From positions 304,110 through 368,109 of IMG/VR virus record IMGVR_UViG_3300005056_000001: DNA of 64,000 nucleotides, one strand, 5' to 3'. The notes under the pieces are model-generated. The model was not told where the DNA came from. It made no database searches and was given only the letters and a program-made list of their open reading frames with translations. The DNA is from a virus. This document shows positions 2,435-60,568 of the stretch, in pieces. The position numbers and the translations under genes were made by a program. Numbering within the stretch: position 1 is the stretch's first letter; the number at the start of each line of letters is the position of its first letter.

Positions 2435-3310
2435 TTAGTCGTATTTTATCTTCCTTGGTTTTCTACACCATGTGTTCGGGACGTTTATGTATCTAATTTT
2501 AGGAAGCTCCTCGATCCATTCGGGTAATTCCATTCTTTCGTTTCCGCCTAGCCATAGACATTCAAGGTTGTTTAGATTTTTCATTGACTCAGGAAGGTGT
2601 GTGATATCATTACCCGACAAGTATAGAAACTTAAGAGATTCTAGCTCACCAATACTTTCGGGTAACTCGTTTAAATTATTGTTTTGGAAATTCAAGTCTG
2701 TAATATTTTTAAGATCACCGATGTGTTTTGGCATTGTTTCTATGAGACCATCACGAACATTCAATACACTCAACATTTTCAGGTCACATAGCGAGTCGGG
2801 CAATTCGGTCAATTTATTTCCGATTAAACCAAGATATGACAAGTGTTTAAGGTTCCCAATATCTTTTGGTATCGAGGACACATCACACCTTATCAAATCT
2901 AAACCTCTAAGGTTTTGTAAACTACACAACCAATCAGGCAAGTCTCCAAGCACACAATCACAGGTGACAAAAGTTCGTAGACTTTTAAGATTCTTCATGC
3001 TATCAGGAAGATGTGTGATATTGCAGTATTCTAATTTAATCTTTTCTAAATGTGTCAGTAGTCCGATATTTTCGGGAATTGTATATTTATGCATAAAGCC
3101 TCTTGTTAGGGTTTTCGTACTGCCCAACTTTCTTAATAAGTCCAATAAAGGGAAATTTATACTTAACGGATTAAAAGAAATGTACAGCTCATAATACCCG
3201 CTAAAATCCATCACAATATTATTGGACTCAACCAATTGCAATGCAAGTTCAATATTGTTGCTGTCCCATGTGTGAATGAGGTCTAGTATTTTTTGTTCGT
3301 CTGTTGTCAT
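2435..3310 (-). CDS. Leucine-rich repeat protein
   Basis: 291 aa from the ATG at 3310, whose ATGA overlaps the stop of the upstream gene; an in-frame ATG at 3328 would add six residues. From about residue 85 onward there are eight or more consecutive 23-residue LRRs of the LxxLxxLxLxxNxLxxLPxxIGxL type, for example LKHLSYLGLIGNKLTELP and LESLKFLYLSGNDITHLP. LRR arrays form curved protein-binding solenoids. There is no signal peptide or catalytic domain, so a cytoplasmic binding role is likely; the partner is unknown. The N-terminal 85 residues are not LRRs and may hold a specific function. Confidence 0.85.
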   Translation of the reverse strand: MTTDEQKILDLIHTWDSNNIELALQLVESNNIVMDFSGYYELYISFNPLSINFPLLDLLRKLGSTKTLTRGFMHKYTIPENIGLLTHLEKIKLEYCNITHLPDSMKNLKSLRTFVTCDCVLGDLPDWLCSLQNLRGLDLIRCDVSSIPKDIGNLKHLSYLGLIGNKLTELPDSLCDLKMLSVLNVRDGLIETMPKHIGDLKNITDLNFQNNNLNELPESIGELESLKFLYLSGNDITHLPESMKNLNNLECLWLGGNERMELPEWIEELPKIRYINVPNTWCRKPRKIKYD

Positions 3311-3936
3311 TTTGTATAGGTTATCCAATCATATAATAATTCACCGTTGTGCTTACTAACCACACAATCATAAGAAACTTTCTTGTGCTCGTTGTGTGCC
3401 CAAAGATGTGTAATAATATTTGCCTTTACTTTGTCGGGCTTGAGGTTCTTCAATAAGTGTGTTACTAGGTTCGGGTGGATTCGCTTGTTTATACACCAAA
3501 GAAGAATAATATCCACATGATTGACATAGTATAGCAAAACAAAAATATACTTCATACAGTGTCCAATATTTTCAATGGGCATTATGACATTGGGACAAGT
3601 CGAAAAAGCGTAGCCTTCTGAGGTTAGTATCAGGTCTGTATGACTATCTCCCATGCCTGTCGAAAGAAAGTTTTTGGCTGTCTCATTGAAATTATTGTCA
3701 CAATCCAAGGCAGCGGTAACTGTCCCGAATAATTCGTCAATACGTTTATTGTCGTATATGTCTAACACAAGAAACGACAAATCAAGATTTGTTGCAGGAA
3801 CATCACCAACGGTAAATCGAAGATTCTTAAAATCCTCAAGTAGTGGCCCTGAATCCATAAACAGGGTCGTGTCGTTTATAATCCATGACGACCCATTTTT
3901 TAGGTATAAATTAAGCCCCTCAAATTTTATAGTCAT
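3307..3936 (-). CDS. Unknown protein upstream of LRR gene
   Basis: 209 aa, translationally coupled to the LRR gene by a 4-bp ATGA overlap. A hydrophobic stretch around residues 127-149 could be a buried helix or a single membrane segment. No recognised family. The coupling suggests the two proteins act together. Confidence 0.7.
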   Translation of the reverse strand: MTIKFEGLNLYLKNGSSWIINDTTLFMDSGPLLEDFKNLRFTVGDVPATNLDLSFLVLDIYDNKRIDELFGTVTAALDCDNNFNETAKNFLSTGMGDSHTDLILTSEGYAFSTCPNVIMPIENIGHCMKYIFVLLYYVNHVDIILLWCINKRIHPNLVTHLLKNLKPDKVKANIITHLWAHNEHKKVSYDCVVSKHNGELLYDWITYTK

Positions 3937-5298: not shown

Positions 5299-5574
5299 TT
5301 ATTTTTTGACGTTCCCAACATTATTGATCACAACATTATTGTATCCCATTGCCAACAACATTCCTGTTGTTAAATGGTTTAAAAAATGAAACACATTCCC
5401 GTTCAGGAAATCAATCTTTACCAATGTGTTTCGGATCATCTTGTGTTCCGACTTTGCTGCACAGATATAATCAACCAACATTTGCCATGTTAAGCCGATA
5501 TGACCATCAACACCAATTTCTGCATCAATGTCCATGCCTTTTTCTGAAAGTAGATTTAATAGGTAAGTTCTCAT
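5299..5574 (-). CDS. Small conserved-looking phage protein, unknown
   Basis: 91 aa. The arrangement (MRTYLLNLLSEKG, a middle MLVDYICAAKSEHKMIRNTL, then KIDFLNGNVFHFLNHLT and MGY) has the look of a small alpha/beta domain seen in other Bacteroidota phages, but its function is unknown to me. It is the first gene behind the composite promoter at 5602-5673; the leader before its ATG is almost pure A. Confidence 0.65.
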   Translation of the reverse strand: MRTYLLNLLSEKGMDIDAEIGVDGHIGLTWQMLVDYICAAKSEHKMIRNTLVKIDFLNGNVFHFLNHLTTGMLLAMGYNNVVINNVGNVKK

Positions 5575-5601: not shown

Positions 5602-5673
5602 ATGATTGCCTTACAAATATAGACAAAAATCCGTGCCCACAAGCATGGACACGGATTTTAACATTTCTTTAAC
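5602..5673 (-). promoter_or_regulatory. Composite terminator-promoter element, copy A
   Basis: Read leftward: paired GTTAA repeats 11 bp apart (5655-5673), an imperfect 14-bp stem (5646-5659 with 5626-5639), a TTG -33 box in the loop (5640-5642), 18 bp, the -7 box TATATTTG (5614-5621) and a conserved leader TAAGGCAATCAT (5602-5613). The -33/-7 pair matches the Bacteroidota consensus. The hairpin ends in T-rich sequence, so it should terminate the gene ending at 5682 and start transcription for the gene at 5574. Copy B at 6486-6557 is almost identical. Confidence 0.8.
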
Positions 5674-5681
5674 GTTTTTAA

Positions 5682-6464
5682 CTAAATTTTCATTTTGGAG
5701 TTGTTCTTTAAAATACTACTGAGCTCTGTTTTTGAATCCTTCAAAAGCTTTTTGTGTGCCTTAACACTGTCGGTTGCCCATTTAATATGTTTTTTATAGG
5801 AGTTAACACAATCCTTGATGCACTCTTTTTGATATTTCTTGTAACCCTCAATATCATTTTTGTATAATTTGTAATTGTGACAAGATTTGTCAATACTCTC
5901 AAAATCATCCAATAACCAAGAAACATTTTTATGTTCCAATATTTGTGTGACAGTCTTTATGTTTTTCTTGGTGGCTAGGTACTCAAGGTTTCTGTTAATC
6001 GAAGATTTGGCCAATGTAATCACATCGTTCAATTTTTTTGTGCGGTTATTTTGGCGTTTAACGGCCTTTGACAGTGCTTCGTACTTGTCTGTCACATCTT
6101 GTCTGTTTGTTTGAGGAAGGGTGGTTTGTGTGGTGTAGCGTGTATGAAACCGTTGCTTGTTCCATCCACCCGCATAAATAACATCAGTAGTCAATGTATA
6201 CTCTCTTTCGTCACGTATGATAATGGCATTAATTGTAACATTCCCACAATCAAGATTTGCCGTGAACGATTTTAGTTTGTCTGTTGGAAGTGTGTATTTA
6301 TTTATTGATGTTGCCATCTTATAAACCATGTCCAACCTAAGACATTGTTTGTCGTACTTGCTTAATGCCTTGCCATTCTTTTGGATGTTGTGGTCATTAA
6401 CCTTTTTGATAATGGTATTGATCCAAGAGTTTGACTTTTCGATAATTGTTTCCAAGATATGCAT
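5682..6464 (-). CDS. Unknown Lys/Asn-rich helical protein
   Basis: 260 aa, basic. An N-terminal helical region is followed by a beta-rich middle (VTINAIIIRDEREYTLTT, residues about 75-95) and a long Lys-rich helical C-terminus from about 125 on. No domain recognised. It sits alone between two copies of the composite terminator-promoter element, so it is probably its own transcription unit. Confidence 0.7.
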   Translation of the reverse strand: MHILETIIEKSNSWINTIIKKVNDHNIQKNGKALSKYDKQCLRLDMVYKMATSINKYTLPTDKLKSFTANLDCGNVTINAIIIRDEREYTLTTDVIYAGGWNKQRFHTRYTTQTTLPQTNRQDVTDKYEALSKAVKRQNNRTKKLNDVITLAKSSINRNLEYLATKKNIKTVTQILEHKNVSWLLDDFESIDKSCHNYKLYKNDIEGYKKYQKECIKDCVNSYKKHIKWATDSVKAHKKLLKDSKTELSSILKNNSKMKI

Positions 6465-6485: not shown

Positions 6486-6557
6486 ATGATTGCCTTACAA
6501 ATATAGACAAAAATCCGTGCCCACAAGCATGGACACGGATTTTAACATTTCCTTAAC
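6486..6557 (-). promoter_or_regulatory. Composite terminator-promoter element, copy B
   Basis: Nearly base-for-base copy of element A. GTTAA pair at 6539-6557, stem 6530-6543 with 6510-6523, loop TTG, -7 box TATATTTG (6498-6505) and leader TAAGGCAATCAT (6486-6497). It drives the 260-aa gene at 6464 and can terminate the gene ending at 6571. Confidence 0.8.
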
Positions 6558-7340: not shown

Positions 7341-7402
7341 CAATATTAAACAAAAAAGTCCGTACCAAAAAATTTTAGTACGAACTTTAACATTTTCTTA
7401 AC
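7341..7402 (-). promoter_or_regulatory. Composite terminator-promoter element, divergent copy
   Basis: Same design as copies A and B with different sequence: GTTAA pair 11 bp apart (7385-7402), stem 7378-7387 with 7356-7365 (one wobble), TTG at 7366-7368, 17 bp, -7 TAATATTG (7341-7348). It lacks the TAAGGCAATCAT leader. It terminates the gene ending at 7412 and starts the gene at 7307. Confidence 0.7.
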
Positions 7403-7411
7403 ATATACATG

Positions 7412-7720
7412 CTATTTTATGTACTTGCCCTCTACGCCACGACGTTTTCTGTCTTTCGTGCGCCTGTTTTGAGTTTTCAGTGCCACGTTTATAAGGTCTA
7501 TAGTCTTTTCGTTTTCTTTACAAGGAAGCGCATCATTAAGGCTAGTGTAGAGGTTTCTTACAAATTCTAGCATGTCGGTTGCCTGACATCCATTAATACC
7601 AACATCGCCAATTGGAGCATCCTGTACCTCAAACGTTACGCTATGATCTTCCTGTGATAGTTGAACATATACTCTTACGTCATGCTCCAATTTATTTCGT
7701 GCCTCTGTTACGTGTTTCAT
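7412..7720 (-). CDS. Acb2/Tad1-like anti-defence nucleotide sponge
   Basis: 102 aa. Three blocks match the pattern I associate with the Acb2/Tad1 hairpin family: DAPIGDVGINGCQATDML (residues 34-51), PCKEN (66-70) and RTKDRKRRGVEG (87-98), in the usual order and spacing, after an N-terminal beta segment. Characterised members bind immune signal nucleotides (cyclic oligonucleotides for Acb2, gcADPR for Tad1) and so block CBASS or Thoeris defence. Which ligand this one binds cannot be read from sequence. It is the last gene before the composite element at 7341-7402. Confidence 0.75.
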   Translation of the reverse strand: MKHVTEARNKLEHDVRVYVQLSQEDHSVTFEVQDAPIGDVGINGCQATDMLEFVRNLYTSLNDALPCKENEKTIDLINVALKTQNRRTKDRKRRGVEGKYIK

Positions 7721-7769: not shown

Positions 7770-7991
7770 CTATCGCTTACTTTTCGTGTTCCTCTGAATG
7801 TGTCTGAATTTTACGATAATATTCAAATCTAATTTGATGGGTATTTCGCCAATAAAAGGTCTGTAGTAATACTCACCCGTCAGATGATTGGTGTAACCCT
7901 TGAATTCGTCGCCATCTTTGTCTATAAACATAAACTGCTCACCACCTGTTATCTTAAAATTGTGCCGTGTTTTTACTGTATATACATCCAT
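7770..7991 (-). CDS. Small beta-rich protein, unknown
   Basis: 73 aa with mostly beta-type sequence and a basic C-terminal tail (RHIQRNTKSKR). No recognised family. Confidence 0.55.
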   Translation of the reverse strand: MDVYTVKTRHNFKITGGEQFMFIDKDGDEFKGYTNHLTGEYYYRPFIGEIPIKLDLNIIVKFRHIQRNTKSKR

Positions 7992-8043: not shown

Positions 8044-8361
8044 TTATCCTTGCTCGTTCTCATCATACAAACGTTCTAAGACTCTTATCGAATCCATGGC
8101 AGCCTCTTTGCATACACCCAAAGAATGTTTGTCCTTCGCCTTTATTAAAACCTCCACATAGGAATATTTTAACAACATTACAGTAAGTGCCAAAGATAAC
8201 ATTTCGATGTACGTACAGTCATTCGTTTTCAATCTAAAATCTTCTTTGTCAAGTTTTTCGGAAACCAACATGTTCGCATATCCGTATATACCAACAGACT
8301 TGTCATGTGGTATCATACCTATAACGGATTCGAAATCCTCAATTTTTTGTTTATTTTTCAT
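8044..8361 (-). CDS. Unknown helical protein
   Basis: 105 aa, mostly helical (YIEMLSLALTVMLLKYSYVE, residues about 50-69), acidic C-terminus. No recognised domain; part of the leftward small-gene run. Confidence 0.6.
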   Translation of the reverse strand: MKNKQKIEDFESVIGMIPHDKSVGIYGYANMLVSEKLDKEDFRLKTNDCTYIEMLSLALTVMLLKYSYVEVLIKAKDKHSLGVCKEAAMDSIRVLERLYDENEQG

Positions 8362-8368
8362 AGTTTAT

Positions 8369-8599
8369 TTACCATCTGACTTCACAACCATCTTTTCCAT
8401 TAATTACCTGATAACCAAGAACCACCAAAAGTTCCCCCACCGTTTTATTGATTGGAAAGTGTGGTAGGTTGTTCTTAAAAAGGACATAACCAAGCCCTTC
8501 CTTGGCCCGCTTTTCAATACAGGCACAAACGTGTTCTAGTGTTGTGTTTTTGTTGTTGGCTATTATGGTCAGCGTCTTAGCCTCTGTTGCTCTTAACAT
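8369..8599 (-). CDS. Small phage protein (AxEA...GY.V...W pattern)
   Basis: 76 aa. The pattern EAKTLTIIAN, then a helix with CACIEKRAKEGLGY, then GELLVVLGYQV and a terminal W is common among small phage proteins of unknown role. It lies 8 bp downstream of the next gene in the operon. Confidence 0.6.
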   Translation of the reverse strand: MLRATEAKTLTIIANNKNTTLEHVCACIEKRAKEGLGYVLFKNNLPHFPINKTVGELLVVLGYQVINGKDGCEVRW

Positions 8600-8606
8600 T
8601 TTTTGT

Positions 8607-8918
8607 TTATGGTTTTAGCAGACATTTCTCGATCTGTTCAATTTTGATTAGGATTCTTTCGGACTCATTACTGTCTTGACATTCGGCAAATTTTAGGGTT
8701 AGATCATCCCGTCGTGCCTCGAGCTTGACGTTTTTGCCCTGTCGCTTTGTGTTCTTTAGTGTTGACTTTAGCTGTAACATTTTGCGTTCGTTGTACCCGT
8801 TAATACCTGCCATTAGCAATGTGTACAGACCTCCTAAGACGGATACTATTAGAAAAAATGCAAAAATGATAATTACTTTGGTACTATTTTCGTCAAGACT
8901 GTTTATAAATTCCCACAT
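8607..8918 (-). CDS. Single-TM protein with basic coiled coil
   Basis: 103 aa. One hydrophobic segment (about 15-37) followed by a strongly charged, Lys-rich helix (residues 48-100). Predicted bitopic membrane protein with a cytoplasmic coiled coil. Function unknown; a spanin-like role would need an outer-membrane partner, which is not visible next to it. Confidence 0.65.
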   Translation of the reverse strand: MWEFINSLDENSTKVIIIFAFFLIVSVLGGLYTLLMAGINGYNERKMLQLKSTLKNTKRQGKNVKLEARRDDLTLKFAECQDSNESERILIKIEQIEKCLLKP

Positions 8919-11648: not shown

Positions 11649-12014
11649 TTAGTAGTTGTAAACCCTTACCAATAATCCGTTCTCGTGTGCCAAATCAATC
11701 ATGTGCCTTGTACCCTTGCTTTTCGTGTCCCAAAAGGCTATTAAGGCATCCGAGTATTTTGCCATTTGCTTGTTTCTTATATAGCCTGCCGCCAATTTTA
11801 ATCCCTTCCAATCAGCGGGGAATTTTTTGATTTTATACCCACGGGCCTTGGCATATCTTTCTCCAAGTTTGTCGGTACCATTGGCGGTTCCGCTTATTAT
11901 TGTCACATCGTTTTTGTTTCTGAGTATCTTGTCACAGTAGACCACCAATGATTTGTAGTCCAAAAAATGACGGCCTCCTGCAATGATTACATTGAATGTT
12001 TCTGTACTATCCAT
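11649..12014 (-). CDS. SLOG (YspA/DUF2493-like) nucleotide-binding protein
   Basis: 121 aa from the ATG at 12014; an in-frame ATG at 12059 overlaps the upstream gene more deeply. Signature blocks are clear: IIAGGRHFLDY, SGTANGTDKLGERYA, FPADW, AGYIRNKQMAKYSDALIAFW and SKGTRHMI. These define the YspA-type SLOG family, a small Rossmann fold proposed to bind nucleotide-derived ligands. The role in phages is not established; sensing or masking an NAD- or nucleotide-derived signal is possible. Confidence 0.85.
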   Translation of the reverse strand: MDSTETFNVIIAGGRHFLDYKSLVVYCDKILRNKNDVTIISGTANGTDKLGERYAKARGYKIKKFPADWKGLKLAAGYIRNKQMAKYSDALIAFWDTKSKGTRHMIDLAHENGLLVRVYNY

Positions 12015-12375
12015 GTGTATCGTTCTTCTTGTTAAAATCCATGAATAAATAATACCCAAATGAACAGAGCATACATGTAAATGTTACACAGGTATAGATC
12101 CCGACAAGACTTTTTGCTCCATAGTGTTTAATAATTTCGTCGGATTGTTGACGTGCCATCATACACGGGAATATGCCAAAGAATATAATTTCTTGTATGG
12201 TGTCTATTATGCCCAAATATTGTGGTAAAAGCATGCGTGGTAAAAGTATAACCAAATATATCCTAACTATACCAATGAGCGTCCCTACTTGGCTAGGAAG
12301 AATTTTTATATAATACTCCGATGGCTTAAAAACCCAAAAGTATATTATATCCATTACTAGCATTAAAAACCTCAT
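12007..12375 (-). CDS. Multi-pass membrane protein
   Basis: 122 aa with about four hydrophobic segments (residues roughly 1-16, 27-48, 55-72, 89-110) and a charged C-terminus. No recognised family. Overlaps the SLOG gene start by 8 bp. Confidence 0.65.
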   Translation of the reverse strand: MRFLMLVMDIIYFWVFKPSEYYIKILPSQVGTLIGIVRIYLVILLPRMLLPQYLGIIDTIQEIIFFGIFPCMMARQQSDEIIKHYGAKSLVGIYTCVTFTCMLCSFGYYLFMDFNKKNDTHG

Positions 12376-13051: not shown

Positions 13052-13573
13052 TTAAACGCCAAGCTCCAACGGATGTTCGAGCATATCCACGAACTCAATA
13101 GTCAGAAACCAATCGCCCTTCTTGTATTTGAATTCTGCCTCATTTTCGCTTTTTCGTTTACGCACGAAATCCTTGTGCTTCTTATATTTTTCAAATAGTT
13201 TATTATAACCTTTTCTTGCATCTATGGAATTTGTATAAAACCTTGATTTTGAGTTCAAACAAAATGTATGGTCAATACACCCGTCAACGATCTTGTATCT
13301 ATACCCGTCTAAATCCAATAAATCTTGTATGGTAACACCCTCAGTCTCTTTCATATTGTTTTGGTCACAATATGAAAATCTAGGAACCATTTTATTCTCG
13401 TGCCGAACCGTGTCGGTAAACATGGCATATGGTTGCACAATTGTCGCATGGTCGCCATACATTTTCTTGTATACCACCAATCGGCTGTTGTCCTCGGAAT
13501 GATTTGCCACGGAAATAACCCTGTAGTGTTTGCCTTTATAGTGTTGATATACTCCTTTGTCTATTGTTTTCAT
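13052..13573 (-). CDS. DUF1653-domain protein
   Basis: 173 aa. Residues about 7-60 match DUF1653 (GVYQHYKGKHYRVISVANHS, then LVVYKKMYGD and MF), a small SH3-like barrel of unknown role common in bacteria and phages. The rest is a Lys-rich helical extension. It is coupled to the upstream membrane gene by an ATGA overlap (13570-13573). A truncated duplicate of its 5' end lies at 14003-14144. Confidence 0.8.
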   Translation of the reverse strand: MKTIDKGVYQHYKGKHYRVISVANHSEDNSRLVVYKKMYGDHATIVQPYAMFTDTVRHENKMVPRFSYCDQNNMKETEGVTIQDLLDLDGYRYKIVDGCIDHTFCLNSKSRFYTNSIDARKGYNKLFEKYKKHKDFVRKRKSENEAEFKYKKGDWFLTIEFVDMLEHPLELGV

Positions 13574-13992
13574 TGTAATAAATCATTTAGATACATATAA
13601 TAAAATATACACAAAATAATAAGTCCACAAACACGTGAAGGTCGAAGTGTTTTCGAACGAAAAATACCATGAAAAATTGTGGAGCGTAATGATATGGATG
13701 TAAAAATTATACCAAGAATAGAAAACGCATAGATGGCATTTATACACATTTTCTTACGGCTCATGTGTGAAGATATATTGGTGACCACATCATTCTGAAT
13801 ATTACCAATATTCTCGACAATACCACCAACATCAAGCACTTCGGTGACACCCACCTGATCCTTAAGCACAGAATCTTTTATACAAATATCCAACCAAATA
13901 TCATAGCCATACAGACCCGACAAAACAAGGGCCATAGCGAACAATATATACCATGGCATGTTCTCTTTCATTATTTCTATTCGTTCTTTCAT
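13570..13992 (-). CDS. Membrane protein B, paralogue of membrane protein A
   Basis: 140 aa from the ATG at 13992. The first 50 residues (MKERIEIMKENMPWYIL, then a TM) nearly equal those of the gene at 14252-14713. The remainder differs and holds two more TM segments. The upstream reading-frame extension to 14052 is residual DUF1653 sequence, not part of this gene. This is the product of a local tandem duplication. Confidence 0.7.
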   Translation of the reverse strand: MKERIEIMKENMPWYILFAMALVLSGLYGYDIWLDICIKDSVLKDQVGVTEVLDVGGIVENIGNIQNDVVTNISSHMSRKKMCINAIYAFSILGIIFTSISLRSTIFHGIFRSKTLRPSRVCGLIILCIFYYMYLNDLLQ

Positions 13993-14002
13993 GTTTAATA
14001 TA

Positions 14003-14144
14003 TGTTGCACAATTGTCGCATGGTCGTCATACATTTTCGGGTACACCACCAATCTGCCGTTGTCCTCGGAATTATTTTCCTCGGAAAAAACCCTGAAGTG
14101 TTTGTCTTATAGTGTTGGTATACTCCTTTGTCTATTGTTTTCAT
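14003..14144 (-). pseudogene. Truncated, frameshifted copy of DUF1653 gene 5' end
   Basis: Reading leftward from the ATG at 14144, the sequence follows the first ~145 bases of the gene at 13573 almost base for base (MKTIDKGVYQHYK), then shifts frame after the HYK codons and breaks off just before membrane gene B. It is a non-functional remnant left at the duplication joint. Confidence 0.8.
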
Positions 14145-14251
14145 GTTTTAGTTGTTAGGTGTGTATTTGTAACGTGGAAAAATAAAGAACATACGATCCC
14201 TAGATCAACTCTAGGTTGTTGGATAATGATTGTATACCCACCACAATTATA

Positions 14252-14713
14252 TTAATACTTTTTAAAGGGTCTTATCAGCCCAATAAAATATACTAGAGTT
14301 AAGCCACCGCCTAGTACTATTAAATATCGCCCAAATGGCGTAAATGGTAGTATATTACTGAATTCATCCTCTACTAACACACTATCATGTTCGGATTTGT
14401 TCAGATTTGTAGTGTCAGGAGTAATCACATCTACATCACGCACTGAACCATCGACTGTAACAGCCTCAACAACACGCTCCTCAAACGTCCTTAGTATTGG
14501 CACCGTGTCGTCGGCCCAAATAATATCACCATTCTCGGCAAGATAAGGAACATCAAGCACTTCAGTGACCTCCACCCGATCCTTAAGCACAGAGTCTTTT
14601 ATGCAAATATCCAACCAAATATTATAGCCATACAGGCCCGATAAACCAAGGGCTATTGCGTACAATATATACCATGGCATGTTCTCCTTCATTATTTCAA
14701 TTCGTTCTTTCAT
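14252..14713 (-). CDS. Membrane protein A
   Basis: 153 aa. An N-terminal TM (about 14-32), an acidic soluble middle (residues 50-125) and a C-terminal TM (about 127-147). The soluble part would lie outside the cytoplasm if both ends are inside. Parent or sister of membrane gene B. Function unknown. The region 14145-14251 downstream holds only a short CCTAGA/TCTAGG hairpin. Confidence 0.7.
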   Translation of the reverse strand: MKERIEIMKENMPWYILYAIALGLSGLYGYNIWLDICIKDSVLKDRVEVTEVLDVPYLAENGDIIWADDTVPILRTFEERVVEAVTVDGSVRDVDVITPDTTNLNKSEHDSVLVEDEFSNILPFTPFGRYLIVLGGGLTLVYFIGLIRPFKKY

Positions 14714-57000: not shown

Positions 57001-59254
57001 GGCTATACTGATGTACAGAAAAGTCGGTCAGGTCTATGTGGTACATGAACGACTCAACAACAAATAGTTTATTATCGTAAAAGCCGACATCAGAGAATAA
57101 CACATTGGGCAACCCTGTCGTGGCATGTGTACTCTGTAGTGTTTGTGTAGGAAGATCATATACTTCGACCTCCTGACTAGAATTTATAGAATAAATCAGA
57201 TTATTCTCAATATCCACATAAGAGTTGTTTTGTATTGATATATTGGAGTTGAGAATCGTTCTTGATAGACTGTCATCCAAAAGAGTAAATTCATTGTTCC
57301 CCCCCAATTCGATAGCATATATCACGTCTTCGGTTTGGACTAGATTAGGCTGTGTTGGTTCATCAAAATGGTCAAATCCATAATAGGCCAAGTCCTTTAT
57401 TACAACAGGCAAGTCCTTAAAATCTGTTTGTGTGACAACAATTGTTTGTTCGCCGAATTGATTTACGGCATCGTTTATTTCAGAAATGCTTATTTCGTGT
57501 ATAGAAGAATTGTATACAGTTGTATTATTGGAAATAATAAGCCTGTCAGACAGGTTTGATTCCTTGTCGTACACTATCGTTGCGCCTGTGATGTTATCTA
57601 TATCAAATTCGAGCCTTTTGGTGTTTACTAAGTCCGAAAGATTAAGGACGTGTAATTTATTTCCACTAACCACAAAAACGTCCTCGGTGTTGGTATCAAT
57701 TGTTATGTCAATATCTCCTGTTGGGGCATTGTCCCATCCAATTGCTCCCAACAAAACAACATTTGTTGTTGATGGATCTATTGTGTATAGGTTATCACCA
57801 TTTATGGTGTAGAGTAGTCCGTCATGGAACGTTAGGTTGTTGGGCTCCTCGATAAAAACAATGCTTTTTGATACCACGTTGGTACTTATATCAATACCGA
57901 TTAATTCAACCTGTCCATCAACATCCGAATTTTTCTTTAGTGTGAAAACGGTTTTCGTTTCTACGTCAAATGCAATGTTTGTTGTATAGTACCACTCACT
58001 GCTCAAGATTTTTTGTCTGCCGTCCTCTAAGAAGTACGCCACCAACTGTTTGTAGCTATTCACACCCAAAACATATTGTGAACGGTCACGTGTGTCTGTG
58101 TTGGGGTTATAGTCCAAGAATACACCCTCATTGGTCAAGACAAACCTGTTGGATATGACTAAATCGGACTGTTCAATTTTAAGATAGTTATCATCCTTGG
58201 TTCCGCTGCCCTGAATGTTTATACAGTGTGTTGGGTTGTCCCACGAGCCCAAGTTGGTTATTACGGGCTGTGTGTATTCGCCTATAATGTCCGTTATTTT
58301 TACGTTCACAGGAAGGTAATCATCTTCTAGGATGTCACGTATCAAAAACATTTTATATAGCACTAATTCTGTGTCTATCAAAACGTTTATGTAAAAAGGA
58401 ATACCACGGTCGTCAAATGTGCCGTCTGTCGCATTTATTTGGTAAACCAATTGTATATTGTTGGTCTTGGTAAATACTGCCAAACGATTGTCTATAAAGT
58501 CTAAGACCTCATTGGTCACGTCTGTTGTTACAACCTTATCGGCATTGGCCCAAATTTCACGAATAGACAAAAGATCCCCATACCCAAAAAAGTCTAACAC
58601 AGACAATAAGGACTTGTAGGCCCCTTGGAATGTTTTTATGGTGTTTTGGCGCATAAGAAGCTCACGTCGCTTCTGATTGAGTATTTTTCTGTCCTTGTAT
58701 GGTTGGCGTATGGGTGTGTCTTTAAATGCCTCATACATATCATTATCGACCTTAAGATTGAACACATCCAATTGTTCGGGTGTGTGTAAGTTATAGTCAA
58801 CAATGAGACTGTTTATATCCAACTCAACATTGTACAATACACTATCAATGGTGTATTGGATAAACAACGTACCAAAAGATTTCGGTTCGAAATTATCGTC
58901 AAGGATAGGCTCGCCGTTAATGTATTTTGGACAAAAAGTAACCCCAAACGGAAGTGACTTATAATTTGTTGCTGTCCTTAGAACAACATCGCTCAAGTCC
59001 AATATGTTGTATACTTCGACATTGCCCGTTAATGTACTTCTATATATAATGTCCCAAGATTCGGTTTCATTAGAAACTATGGTGGCCGAAAAAGTTGTGA
59101 TATTATCGGCAACAGGGATCATTAACGAGAATGATGCCACATTATTTACATCATAAGAAGTCGGTCTTAGGTCAATGTCTTTTTTGACTTGAACATAAGA
59201 AGCATCACTAATTTTGATGGGATTATCTTGAAGGTCTGTTTTTACGAGGAGCAT
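54023..59254 (-). CDS. Giant baseplate/tail protein with C-terminal LamG domain
   Basis: 1743 aa. Residues 1-160 are beta-rich. Residues about 196-235 (RRELLMRQNTIKTFQG, then LSVLDFFGYGDLLSIREIW) form a motif I associate with large baseplate proteins of Bacteroidota phages. Residues about 430-900 hold repeated beta blades with N-x-DN and DxxTNxV turns, like a propeller. PKD/Ig-like segments follow, and the last ~200 residues (MLLNGIDEYFEAP, YDGSGLVSGVNMYLNNILL, FYDNARMWNIEL) are a concanavalin/LamG-type carbohydrate-binding domain. Probably baseplate-attached and exposed, binding surface glycans. Confidence 0.7.
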   Translation of the reverse strand: MLLVKTDLQDNPIKISDASYVQVKKDIDLRPTSYDVNNVASFSLMIPVADNITTFSATIVSNETESWDIIYRSTLTGNVEVYNILDLSDVVLRTATNYKSLPFGVTFCPKYINGEPILDDNFEPKSFGTLFIQYTIDSVLYNVELDINSLIVDYNLHTPEQLDVFNLKVDNDMYEAFKDTPIRQPYKDRKILNQKRRELLMRQNTIKTFQGAYKSLLSVLDFFGYGDLLSIREIWANADKVVTTDVTNEVLDFIDNRLAVFTKTNNIQLVYQINATDGTFDDRGIPFYINVLIDTELVLYKMFLIRDILEDDYLPVNVKITDIIGEYTQPVITNLGSWDNPTHCINIQGSGTKDDNYLKIEQSDLVISNRFVLTNEGVFLDYNPNTDTRDRSQYVLGVNSYKQLVAYFLEDGRQKILSSEWYYTTNIAFDVETKTVFTLKKNSDVDGQVELIGIDISTNVVSKSIVFIEEPNNLTFHDGLLYTINGDNLYTIDPSTTNVVLLGAIGWDNAPTGDIDITIDTNTEDVFVVSGNKLHVLNLSDLVNTKRLEFDIDNITGATIVYDKESNLSDRLIISNNTTVYNSSIHEISISEINDAVNQFGEQTIVVTQTDFKDLPVVIKDLAYYGFDHFDEPTQPNLVQTEDVIYAIELGGNNEFTLLDDSLSRTILNSNISIQNNSYVDIENNLIYSINSSQEVEVYDLPTQTLQSTHATTGLPNVLFSDVGFYDNKLFVVESFMYHIDLTDFSVHQYSLDLNLEWAADENAKIWIDGLLGIVYFSTFDEIYYHHFDTVSLTMSSKTYVDATETITALSGKNVNGGTVLYFVDDNDKLNTLEIPSEVFTNIYSYAQSVFSLNLGVVVTFRPDKAFCYDNTDYLLIDSEVFEDVDENDKTIQPYEDYKMLNNFHSLDVALLKMEIGFEPEEYNLFNVKLFNTADLQTPLPMAVWETGWLNISNLAPEMILGLLKIGEYSVRWCLQDKHGGHTILQKKFTVTTTAPDFSLCLIDRTSINPYTKEYQYNKNRIFDLDIHNRQTFHRGDIVHQRDIVNSSDILFQAAQDTTLGAQENSIATDPLAQITNLGLEGNIGANPFENYTVLWGTFPFSEGYPYFTYTAIDLDINTYSLVNQTSPIGIHVKNLMHKSPDAYMRETHMGQFSQTPMIDICDSRMDDYGYTYPRWYIDVLGDGLNGTKTFTIRLLGLEAIFSLNYNSGTQTENEFVKTAVNWLNEKDDTLFNMFTFTLEYVNIDDITTEVMIRATFRFKAYLSEWFVFDTVLNVISNDYQSFGSLQGFARTILDLSVLSGTLEVIGVEESILGLELFQTKHLLYEDILTYTDAQDLATKLRLIATENNFDLEVIVSVGETDEVHLITKDNLIIKHPTLGVQTIKCIGLEGSVLNVVPVGSFVQMGQPFYAFVNTYSRNTNAFIVWTLTDSLTGDVEVVQYSIVFRFMMFKTGTFDLTVSITDRNGTHTHTKKGFVTIDKIPEKIGLPVIEPIPLRIVEKTELATINYSMLLNGIDEYFEAPINPIYDLEWTDPMSISARFKKTSDLSPFHAISKWVTDRGFFFTVTSNGRLRFELSTGLGIDTRSIDVYSDIGSVLNDVHNHMLVTYDGSGLVSGVNMYLNNILLPKTTFGLVCITSDTIINTTPLRMGTLVSVGQFGAGFYDNARMWNIELGVDDIELEYNDGKILDTPVKPNNIIVDCKMGNNGFFDGSNWQLLDESRNVNFFKGINLEEASRSTDVNNQ

Positions 59255-59320
59255 ACATATTTTATCTTATGTACAATTTTTCATTATAGTACATATTTTA
59301 AGCAAAAAAAAACACAAAAA

Positions 59321-60568
59321 ATGACTACCAAACCAAGCATATTCCGTGCTTATCCTTATATGGGATTGTTTATCATATACATTACGAATATATTATTACA
59401 TGTCGGTTTGGTAGAAATGAATCCTTATATCACCATTACCGAAATAATTGTTCTGCTTGTTATAACGATATTCCATAGCAGCCTGTATTTATCAAAAAAA
59501 GCGTTGGTAAAACAAAATGAAATTATTCTAAAAAAATACAAGGATGCCGACATATTCGCAGACGAGTTGGTGAATGCCTCGGCATTGATTTCGAAAACCG
59601 ACGAAAAGGGTAAAATAATTTATGCCAATGCCACATTTTGTTCGGCATCAGGATATAAAATTCATGAATTAATAGGCAGAGACCACAATGTGCTCACTTC
59701 AGGACAACACAAAAAAGACTTTTGGAGCCAAATGTATTTAGCAACCGTGAAATTCAAAACTATTTGGAATGATACGGTTGTGAACAAAACGAAGGGTGGT
59801 GATTTGTATATTGTAAATACATGGATAAAGGCAGACTTTAATAATAGTGGAAAACATATCGGTTTTACGACGGTTCGCCAAGACGTCACAGAGCTTTACA
59901 AAACCAACCGTGAGATCGAAAGGAAGAACATGTTTTTAGAACATTCGGCAAAAATATTAAGACATGACATGCACAGTGGTATATTTATGTACATACCAAG
60001 AGGTTATGATGCTATAATGAGAAAATTACCCGATGAGGTTATTGAGAAATACAACCTTAAAGGCTCGTTGAAGCTCATTGGAGGAGGATTGAAGCGCACC
60101 CAAAACATATATAAGGGTGTCAAGGAATTTACAAATCTTGTAAAAAAAGATTCTGTACTATCAAAAGACCTCTATGACCTACAGGTTATTTTAGAAGAGT
60201 TTGTCAAAGACACGGGTTACGGAAAACAGGTAATGATTGATACATTGCCAATACGAAATGTAAATAAATCGCTTTTTTGTACCGCAATTAACAATCTAAT
60301 AACAAACGGTCTAAAATACAACAAGAGCGCAACGAAGTGGGTTAAGATCTACATTGACGGTTGTGACATGGTTGTTGAAGACAATGGTATTGGTATGACA
60401 AAAAAAGAATATGACGAATACCTTCTGCCTTACGTCAGGGGAACCAACAAAATTTCGGGTAGTGGTCTGGGACTGAATATTTGTAAGGCAATATTAGACG
60501 AACACGGATTCGATATGTACTGTGAAGACATTGAAGGCGGAACAAAAATACGGATAAAAATAAACTAA
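59321..60568 (+). CDS. Membrane PAS sensor histidine kinase
   Basis: 415 aa from the ATG at 59321; the frame opens at 59189 inside the divergent gene. TM segments about 13-30 and 38-58; PAS domain about 85-195 (TDEKGKIIYANATFCSASGY, then IGFTTVRQDVTEL); a phosphoacceptor helix with KILRHDMHSGI (likely H215), which deviates from the usual SHELRTPL form; HATPase from about 315 with N-box NNLITNGLKYN, G1 VEDNGIGM and G2 GSGLGLNICKAI. All ATP-binding boxes look intact. It would autophosphorylate and pass the phosphate to the receiver encoded one base downstream. Very unusual cargo for a lytic phage. Confidence 0.85.
   Translation: MTTKPSIFRAYPYMGLFIIYITNILLHVGLVEMNPYITITEIIVLLVITIFHSSLYLSKKALVKQNEIILKKYKDADIFADELVNASALISKTDEKGKIIYANATFCSASGYKIHELIGRDHNVLTSGQHKKDFWSQMYLATVKFKTIWNDTVVNKTKGGDLYIVNTWIKADFNNSGKHIGFTTVRQDVTELYKTNREIERKNMFLEHSAKILRHDMHSGIFMYIPRGYDAIMRKLPDEVIEKYNLKGSLKLIGGGLKRTQNIYKGVKEFTNLVKKDSVLSKDLYDLQVILEEFVKDTGYGKQVMIDTLPIRNVNKSLFCTAINNLITNGLKYNKSATKWVKIYIDGCDMVVEDNGIGMTKKEYDEYLLPYVRGTNKISGSGLGLNICKAILDEHGFDMYCEDIEGGTKIRIKIN

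Follow-up and report, generated by a model that had tools for sequence, protein, structure and literature searches.

The window analysed here, the final 64 kb of a virus record 368,109 bases long, carries a leftward block of small genes in which the following features lie in and around a gene of interest:

7355..7388, minus strand: rho-independent-type terminator, a 15-pair stem with a T tract (z-score -5.2), just after the stop codon
7412..7720, minus strand: coding sequence of a short-form Tad1-family protein (P0001), 102 aa, assigned from sequence searches, profiles, AlphaFold2 and a fold search
7770..7991, minus strand: 73-aa ORF with no convincing relative, upstream and presumed to be in the same transcription unit as 7412-7720
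8044..8361, minus strand: 105-aa ORF with no convincing relative, upstream, presumed same unit
8369..8599, minus strand: 76-aa ORF without an informative family match, upstream, presumed same unit
8607..8918, minus strand: 103-aa ORF with one weak holin-like match (PHROG 20, E 0.09), upstream, presumed same unit

The ORF at 7412-7720 is intact, running from ATG to TAA without an internal stop, and the gaps to the next gene are 7 bases after 8607-8918, 7 after 8369-8599, 52 after 8044-8361 and 49 after 7770-7991. The Tad1-family gene probably closes a leftward polycistronic unit, which ends in the strong terminator. Sigma-70-type promoters are not commoner in the region than in shuffled sequences, and the 110 bases preceding the gene hold no Bacteroidota-type promoter. 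Across the block, start codons mostly follow A-rich leaders that show no evident Shine-Dalgarno sequence, the usual arrangement in Bacteroidota. The original prediction had suggested that the neighbouring small genes might also be anti-defence; family scans and relative searches gave no such sign among the neighbours tested, which have neither an informative family nor convincing relatives, and that suggestion is without support.

The same part of the window has further features of its own. Two identical 34-base terminator hairpins (6510-6543 and 5626-5659, minus strand), each followed by TGTCTATATTTGTAAGGCAATCATTAGTAAA, lie upstream of 5682-6464 and 5299-5574 and contain TTG-N18-TATATTTG; from their sequence they look like a duplicated terminator-plus-Bacteroidota-promoter cassette. 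Within the leftward block of the Tad1 relative, 11649-12059 (minus strand) encodes a small SLOG-family protein (YAcAr, PF10686, E 7.8e-14); the Thoeris effector ThsA likewise has a sensor domain of the SLOG type (PMC12043709). Adjoining ORFs at 13052-14713 (minus strand) contain near-repeated stretches, with MKERIEIMKENMPWYIL and MKTIDKGVYQHYK each occurring twice, a pattern of sequence that suggests local duplication.

Translation of 7412-7720 gives the three blocks on which the gene was originally recognized, GINGCQ (residues 41-46), PCKEN (66-70) and RRGVEG (93-98), in the order claimed. The blocks are far beyond chance, because the protein has matches in the PDB, in PHROG 2428 (E 2.6e-14) and in 51 phage records. 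As a single sequence it finds Tad1 (8kbb, E 2.6e-5) and phiKZ gp184 (8y6v, E 2.5e-5) in the PDB by phmmer, and the 51 records with relatives found by tblastn include the named Tad1 of SBSphiJ7 (UPI13470.1; 34% identity over 76 residues, E 1e-11). Profiles strengthen these matches: the best Tad1 structure scores 1.1e-18 with a close-subfamily profile and 4.2e-35 with a wide-family profile, phiKZ gp184 scores 4.4e-11 and 2.1e-21, respectively, and the Tad1 chains of the PDB range from about 7e-9 to 4e-35 over both profiles.

Pfam and NCBIfam scans of the window protein itself gave nothing useful, and its homologues were used instead. Pfam family PF24729 (Acb2_Tad1_hairpin; gathering cut-off 27 bits), which covers Acb2 (71 bits) as well as Tad1 (34 bits), does not match the window protein even at E 10, but 37 of the 53 aligned family members hit it at E<=0.01 and hit no other Pfam family. 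Clear relatives also miss this family or score below its cut-off, among them a phage BtpYZU04 protein (21.3 bits) and that of Thanatos-2 (no match), and we therefore read the miss as divergence rather than absence of kinship. Short relatives exist elsewhere too, one being the BtpYZU04 protein, of 79 aa.

The predicted structure and the family alignment divide the protein into four parts:

7625..7720, minus strand: N-terminal part, residues 1-32, with helices at 2-9 and 13-16 (the latter short) and two strands (AlphaFold2)
7589..7624, minus strand: conserved loop Q33-G44 (QDAPIGDVGING; family alignment)
7439..7582, minus strand: helical hairpin of helix 47-64, PCKEN turn and helix 68-94 (AlphaFold2, alignment)
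7427..7441, minus strand: C-terminal tail R94-G98 (RGVEG; family alignment)

These elements came out alike in two AlphaFold2 runs made from different alignments (pLDDT 89.5 and 91.1, pTM 0.79 and 0.82), with the strands at 19-22 and 27-30. The two long C-terminal helices are antiparallel, as in Tad1, and when the second model was compared with PDB folds, nine matches came back at probability 1.00 (TM 0.60-0.68), all of them Tad1 chains, including complexes with cAAG, cAAA and gcADPR; the remaining matches are noise, so that CmTad1 and CbTad1 are the only credible fold matches. The helical-hairpin kind of sponge originally proposed is thereby supported, in that the model has the hairpin and the fold search leads to solved Tad1. 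We therefore narrow the original ‘Acb2/Tad1’ to a Tad1-family protein: the Tad1 half of that label is supported by strong profile matches and by the predicted fold, while the Acb2 half drew no profile match at all.

Residues of the loop (Q33, G41, N43, G44) are invariant among 52 aligned family members, as are N70, R87 and R91 of the hairpin and R94, V96, E97 and G98 of the tail in the family alignment. Among the residues compared, Q33, G44, E69, N70, R87, R91 and G98 are the same in the window protein, in CmTad1 and CbTad1, and in phiKZ gp184. The residues matching N70, R87 and R91 are, we assume, those that contact gcADPR in CbTad1. The C-terminal tail of Tad1 lines the ligand pocket (PMC12043709). 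The N-terminal sheet is smaller in the prediction, with two strands and an N-terminal helix, against the four-stranded antiparallel sheet of solved Tad1 (PMC12043709). The aromatic that precedes the hairpin turn in solved Tad1s (F90 in CmTad1, F83 in the CbTad1 chain, Y187 in gp184) is L61 here, and the turn lacks one residue relative to those structures. This aromatic is common to the solved Tad1s but is not known to define the family; L61 lowers the inference of a ligand and not that of homology. The halved sheet, L61 with its shorter turn, and the W-to-T difference at position 83 may be relevant to the ligand.

CmTad1 (8kbb, 8kbc, 8kbd) is the best solved relative, both by profile and by fold (TM 0.68, rmsd 1.7, 77 columns), and has in common with the window protein the GPI.E.GING loop, the C.EN turn and the RT..R...G.EG tail; it differs in its length (132 aa), its larger N-terminal domain, and W113 at the position of T83. 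CbTad1, solved with gcADPR (7uav, 7uaw, 8smd; profile 4.2e-26, fold TM 0.60), belongs to another clade, has a longer N-terminal part and does not keep the loop G41/N43 or the tail E97. The Tad1 of Bacillus phage SBSphiJ7 (142 aa) has a long N-terminal domain, unlike the short window protein, and in related Bacillus phages tad1 is flanked by a DNA-binding protein gene and a recombinase gene, a context unlike that of the window. Finally, phiKZ gp184 matches through its C-terminal domain and, like the window protein, comes from a jumbo phage and lacks W83 (its equivalent is A), but it is 230 aa long and virion-packaged, with an N-terminal extension that the window protein does not have.

Closer relatives come from viral contigs. 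Searches of these with the window protein, its 260-aa neighbour or the helicase gave no matches, and since a 13-row phage alignment had no sufficiently conserved stretch we used a degenerate DNA pattern on E69-N70...R87-T88...RGVEG, which found 80 loci with the family signature. The closest of these (L028, L045, L046, L065) are 40-47% identical to the window protein over nearly its whole length, including an N-terminus that begins M/IRHV where the window protein begins MKHV. A search with L045 then gave 63 relatives, L188 and others reaching 50-52% identity, so that the closest IMG/VR sequences overall are 40-52% identical across nearly their entire length. Among bacterial genomes the subfamily profile found no match, and the L045 query found one relative, in a Tissierellia MAG contig (L139 932-1153, 58% identical to L045), the only bacterial genome record recovered.

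In a maximum-likelihood tree the window protein falls inside a 14-row group (support 96/91) nested in a 19-row short-form clade (99/97), with CmTad1, CbTad1, SBSphiJ7 Tad1 and phiKZ gp184 all outside it. The clade, drawn from IMG/VR phages (L028, L045, L140-L189), has a common M(R/K)H start and the same deletion in the turn. The median dN/dS of the short subfamily is 0.18 (360 pairs), and we therefore take it to be maintained by purifying selection. These ~105-aa minimal Tad1 proteins thus form a coherent, constrained and apparently uncharacterised clade. The window protein is among its most divergent members, with a long terminal branch (1.25), and its exact position within the 14-row group is unsure. 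Residues common in the subfamily have changed to D75 (for T), L76 (for K) and T83 (for W), W83 being kept by 97% of the subfamily.

The phage itself belongs, by protein similarity, to the jumbo-phage group of Tenacibaculum pT24/PTm1, PAU and Lak. The first 24 kb of the window have no similar DNA in the phage collection. A 532-aa window protein is 44% identical to a protein of Tenacibaculum phage pT24, with further matches in PTm1, Sphingomonas phage PAU, Chryseobacterium phage MA9V and the Prevotella Lak phages, and the window helicase is also nearest to PTm1. Given these relatives the host is probably a member of the Bacteroidota, the recorded Sphingomonas host of PAU being an exception. Profile searches found no Tad1-family member in the complete records of pT24, PTm1, PAU, Lak-C1 and MA9V-1 (the controls SBSphiJ7 and Thanatos-2 both matched), and the gene is therefore accessory in the lineage. 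It is single-copy in the 368-kb record, and searches across that record for another copy, for Tad2 and for an NAD-salvage enzyme found none of them. Elsewhere in the window, 59189-60568 (plus strand) encodes a histidine kinase with a PAS domain (HATPase_c 3e-15, PAS_9 2e-8) whose N-terminal part is apparently membrane-spanning. On the minus strand, 2435-3328 encodes a leucine-rich-repeat protein of 297 aa (LRR_14 6.7e-32), a kind uncommon among phages.

Phage Tad1 is a hexamer built of three dimers and blocks both Thoeris and CBASS (PMC12043709). By sequence the window protein is a homologue of Tad1, and we infer its putative sponge activity and its ligand: with good confidence, we propose a short-form Tad1-family sponge of a nucleotide immune signal, made during jumbo-phage infection, which most likely sequesters a Thoeris or CBASS signal. 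Synthesized during infection, the protein would oligomerize by way of its helical hairpin, with pockets formed by the Q33-G44 loop, the RGVEG tail and a partner's helices bearing N70, R87 and R91. Such pockets could hold gcADPR of Thoeris or a cyclic di- or trinucleotide of CBASS, and the defence effector would consequently stay off. phiKZ gp184 has been validated as virion-carried and injected (PMC10449902), and the Tad1 that this phage injects is reported to block both CBASS and Thoeris (PMC13282480); as the window protein has no N-terminal extension, new synthesis would be likelier here than packaging in the virion.

It is conceivable, though we lean against it, that the short clade has a changed pocket that binds CBASS cyclic oligonucleotides or some other signal and no longer gcADPR, which would be a sub-case of the Tad1-sponge explanation and compatible with it. 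The leucine in place of the aromatic, a turn shortened across almost the entire short clade, the reduced sheet and the well-supported separation from the characterised Tad1s all favour such specialization; yet the polar residues common to all solved Tad1s are kept, and Tad1 homologues are reported to retain binding of both CTNs and gcADPR (PMC12043709). What counts against the sponge proposal more generally is the miss by PF24729, two strands rather than four, L61 with the shorter turn, the lack of W83, and a short clade that includes none of the characterised Tad1s in the tree. We think it unlikely that this clade is instead a distinct hairpin sponge, in the size range from Acb2 to Tad1, that no longer binds gcADPR or has acquired a different signal, the second helix of the window protein having diverged further.

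That the protein is a decayed or repurposed hairpin protein which has lost signal binding, for example a small structural or regulatory protein, also seems improbable. The long terminal branch, the three changes from the subfamily at residues 75, 76 and 83, and the annotation ‘putative structural protein’ on some phage relatives would fit such a history, but every family-invariant residue is kept, the anti-defence Tad1 phiKZ gp184 likewise lacks W83 and the T/K pair, and association with the virion need not be just structural, gp184 being both virion-borne and injected (PMC10449902). An Acb2 (of the T4 Vs.4 or PaMx33 p26 type), which the window protein resembles in its helical hairpin, short N-terminal helix, length (88-94 aa for Acb2, both kinds being about 90-100 aa), homologues with PF24729 membership and, by analogy, action as a nucleotide sponge, is highly improbable and was rejected: neither profile found a PDB Acb2 at E<=10 although 7uq2 and 8h2j are in the database (where a T4 Vs.4 query finds itself and p26), Vs.4 aligned to the family profile over 16 columns only (25.6% probability), and Acb2 was missing from both fold searches, its absence from the first counting for little alone because that search missed CbTad1 too.

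The short-form Tad1 sponge remains the reading we prefer. Both the sponge mechanism and the Tad1 family are already known, and what is new is the short-form member and its clade. A 2026 review names phiKZ Tad1 as so far the sole anti-defence protein described in jumbo phages (PMC13282480), and a second lineage would therefore be of some specialist interest: the gene is an anti-defence candidate in a jumbo-phage lineage whose five searched relatives are without such a gene. The minimal Tad1 clade may in turn be useful for learning how little of Tad1 suffices for binding each immune signal.
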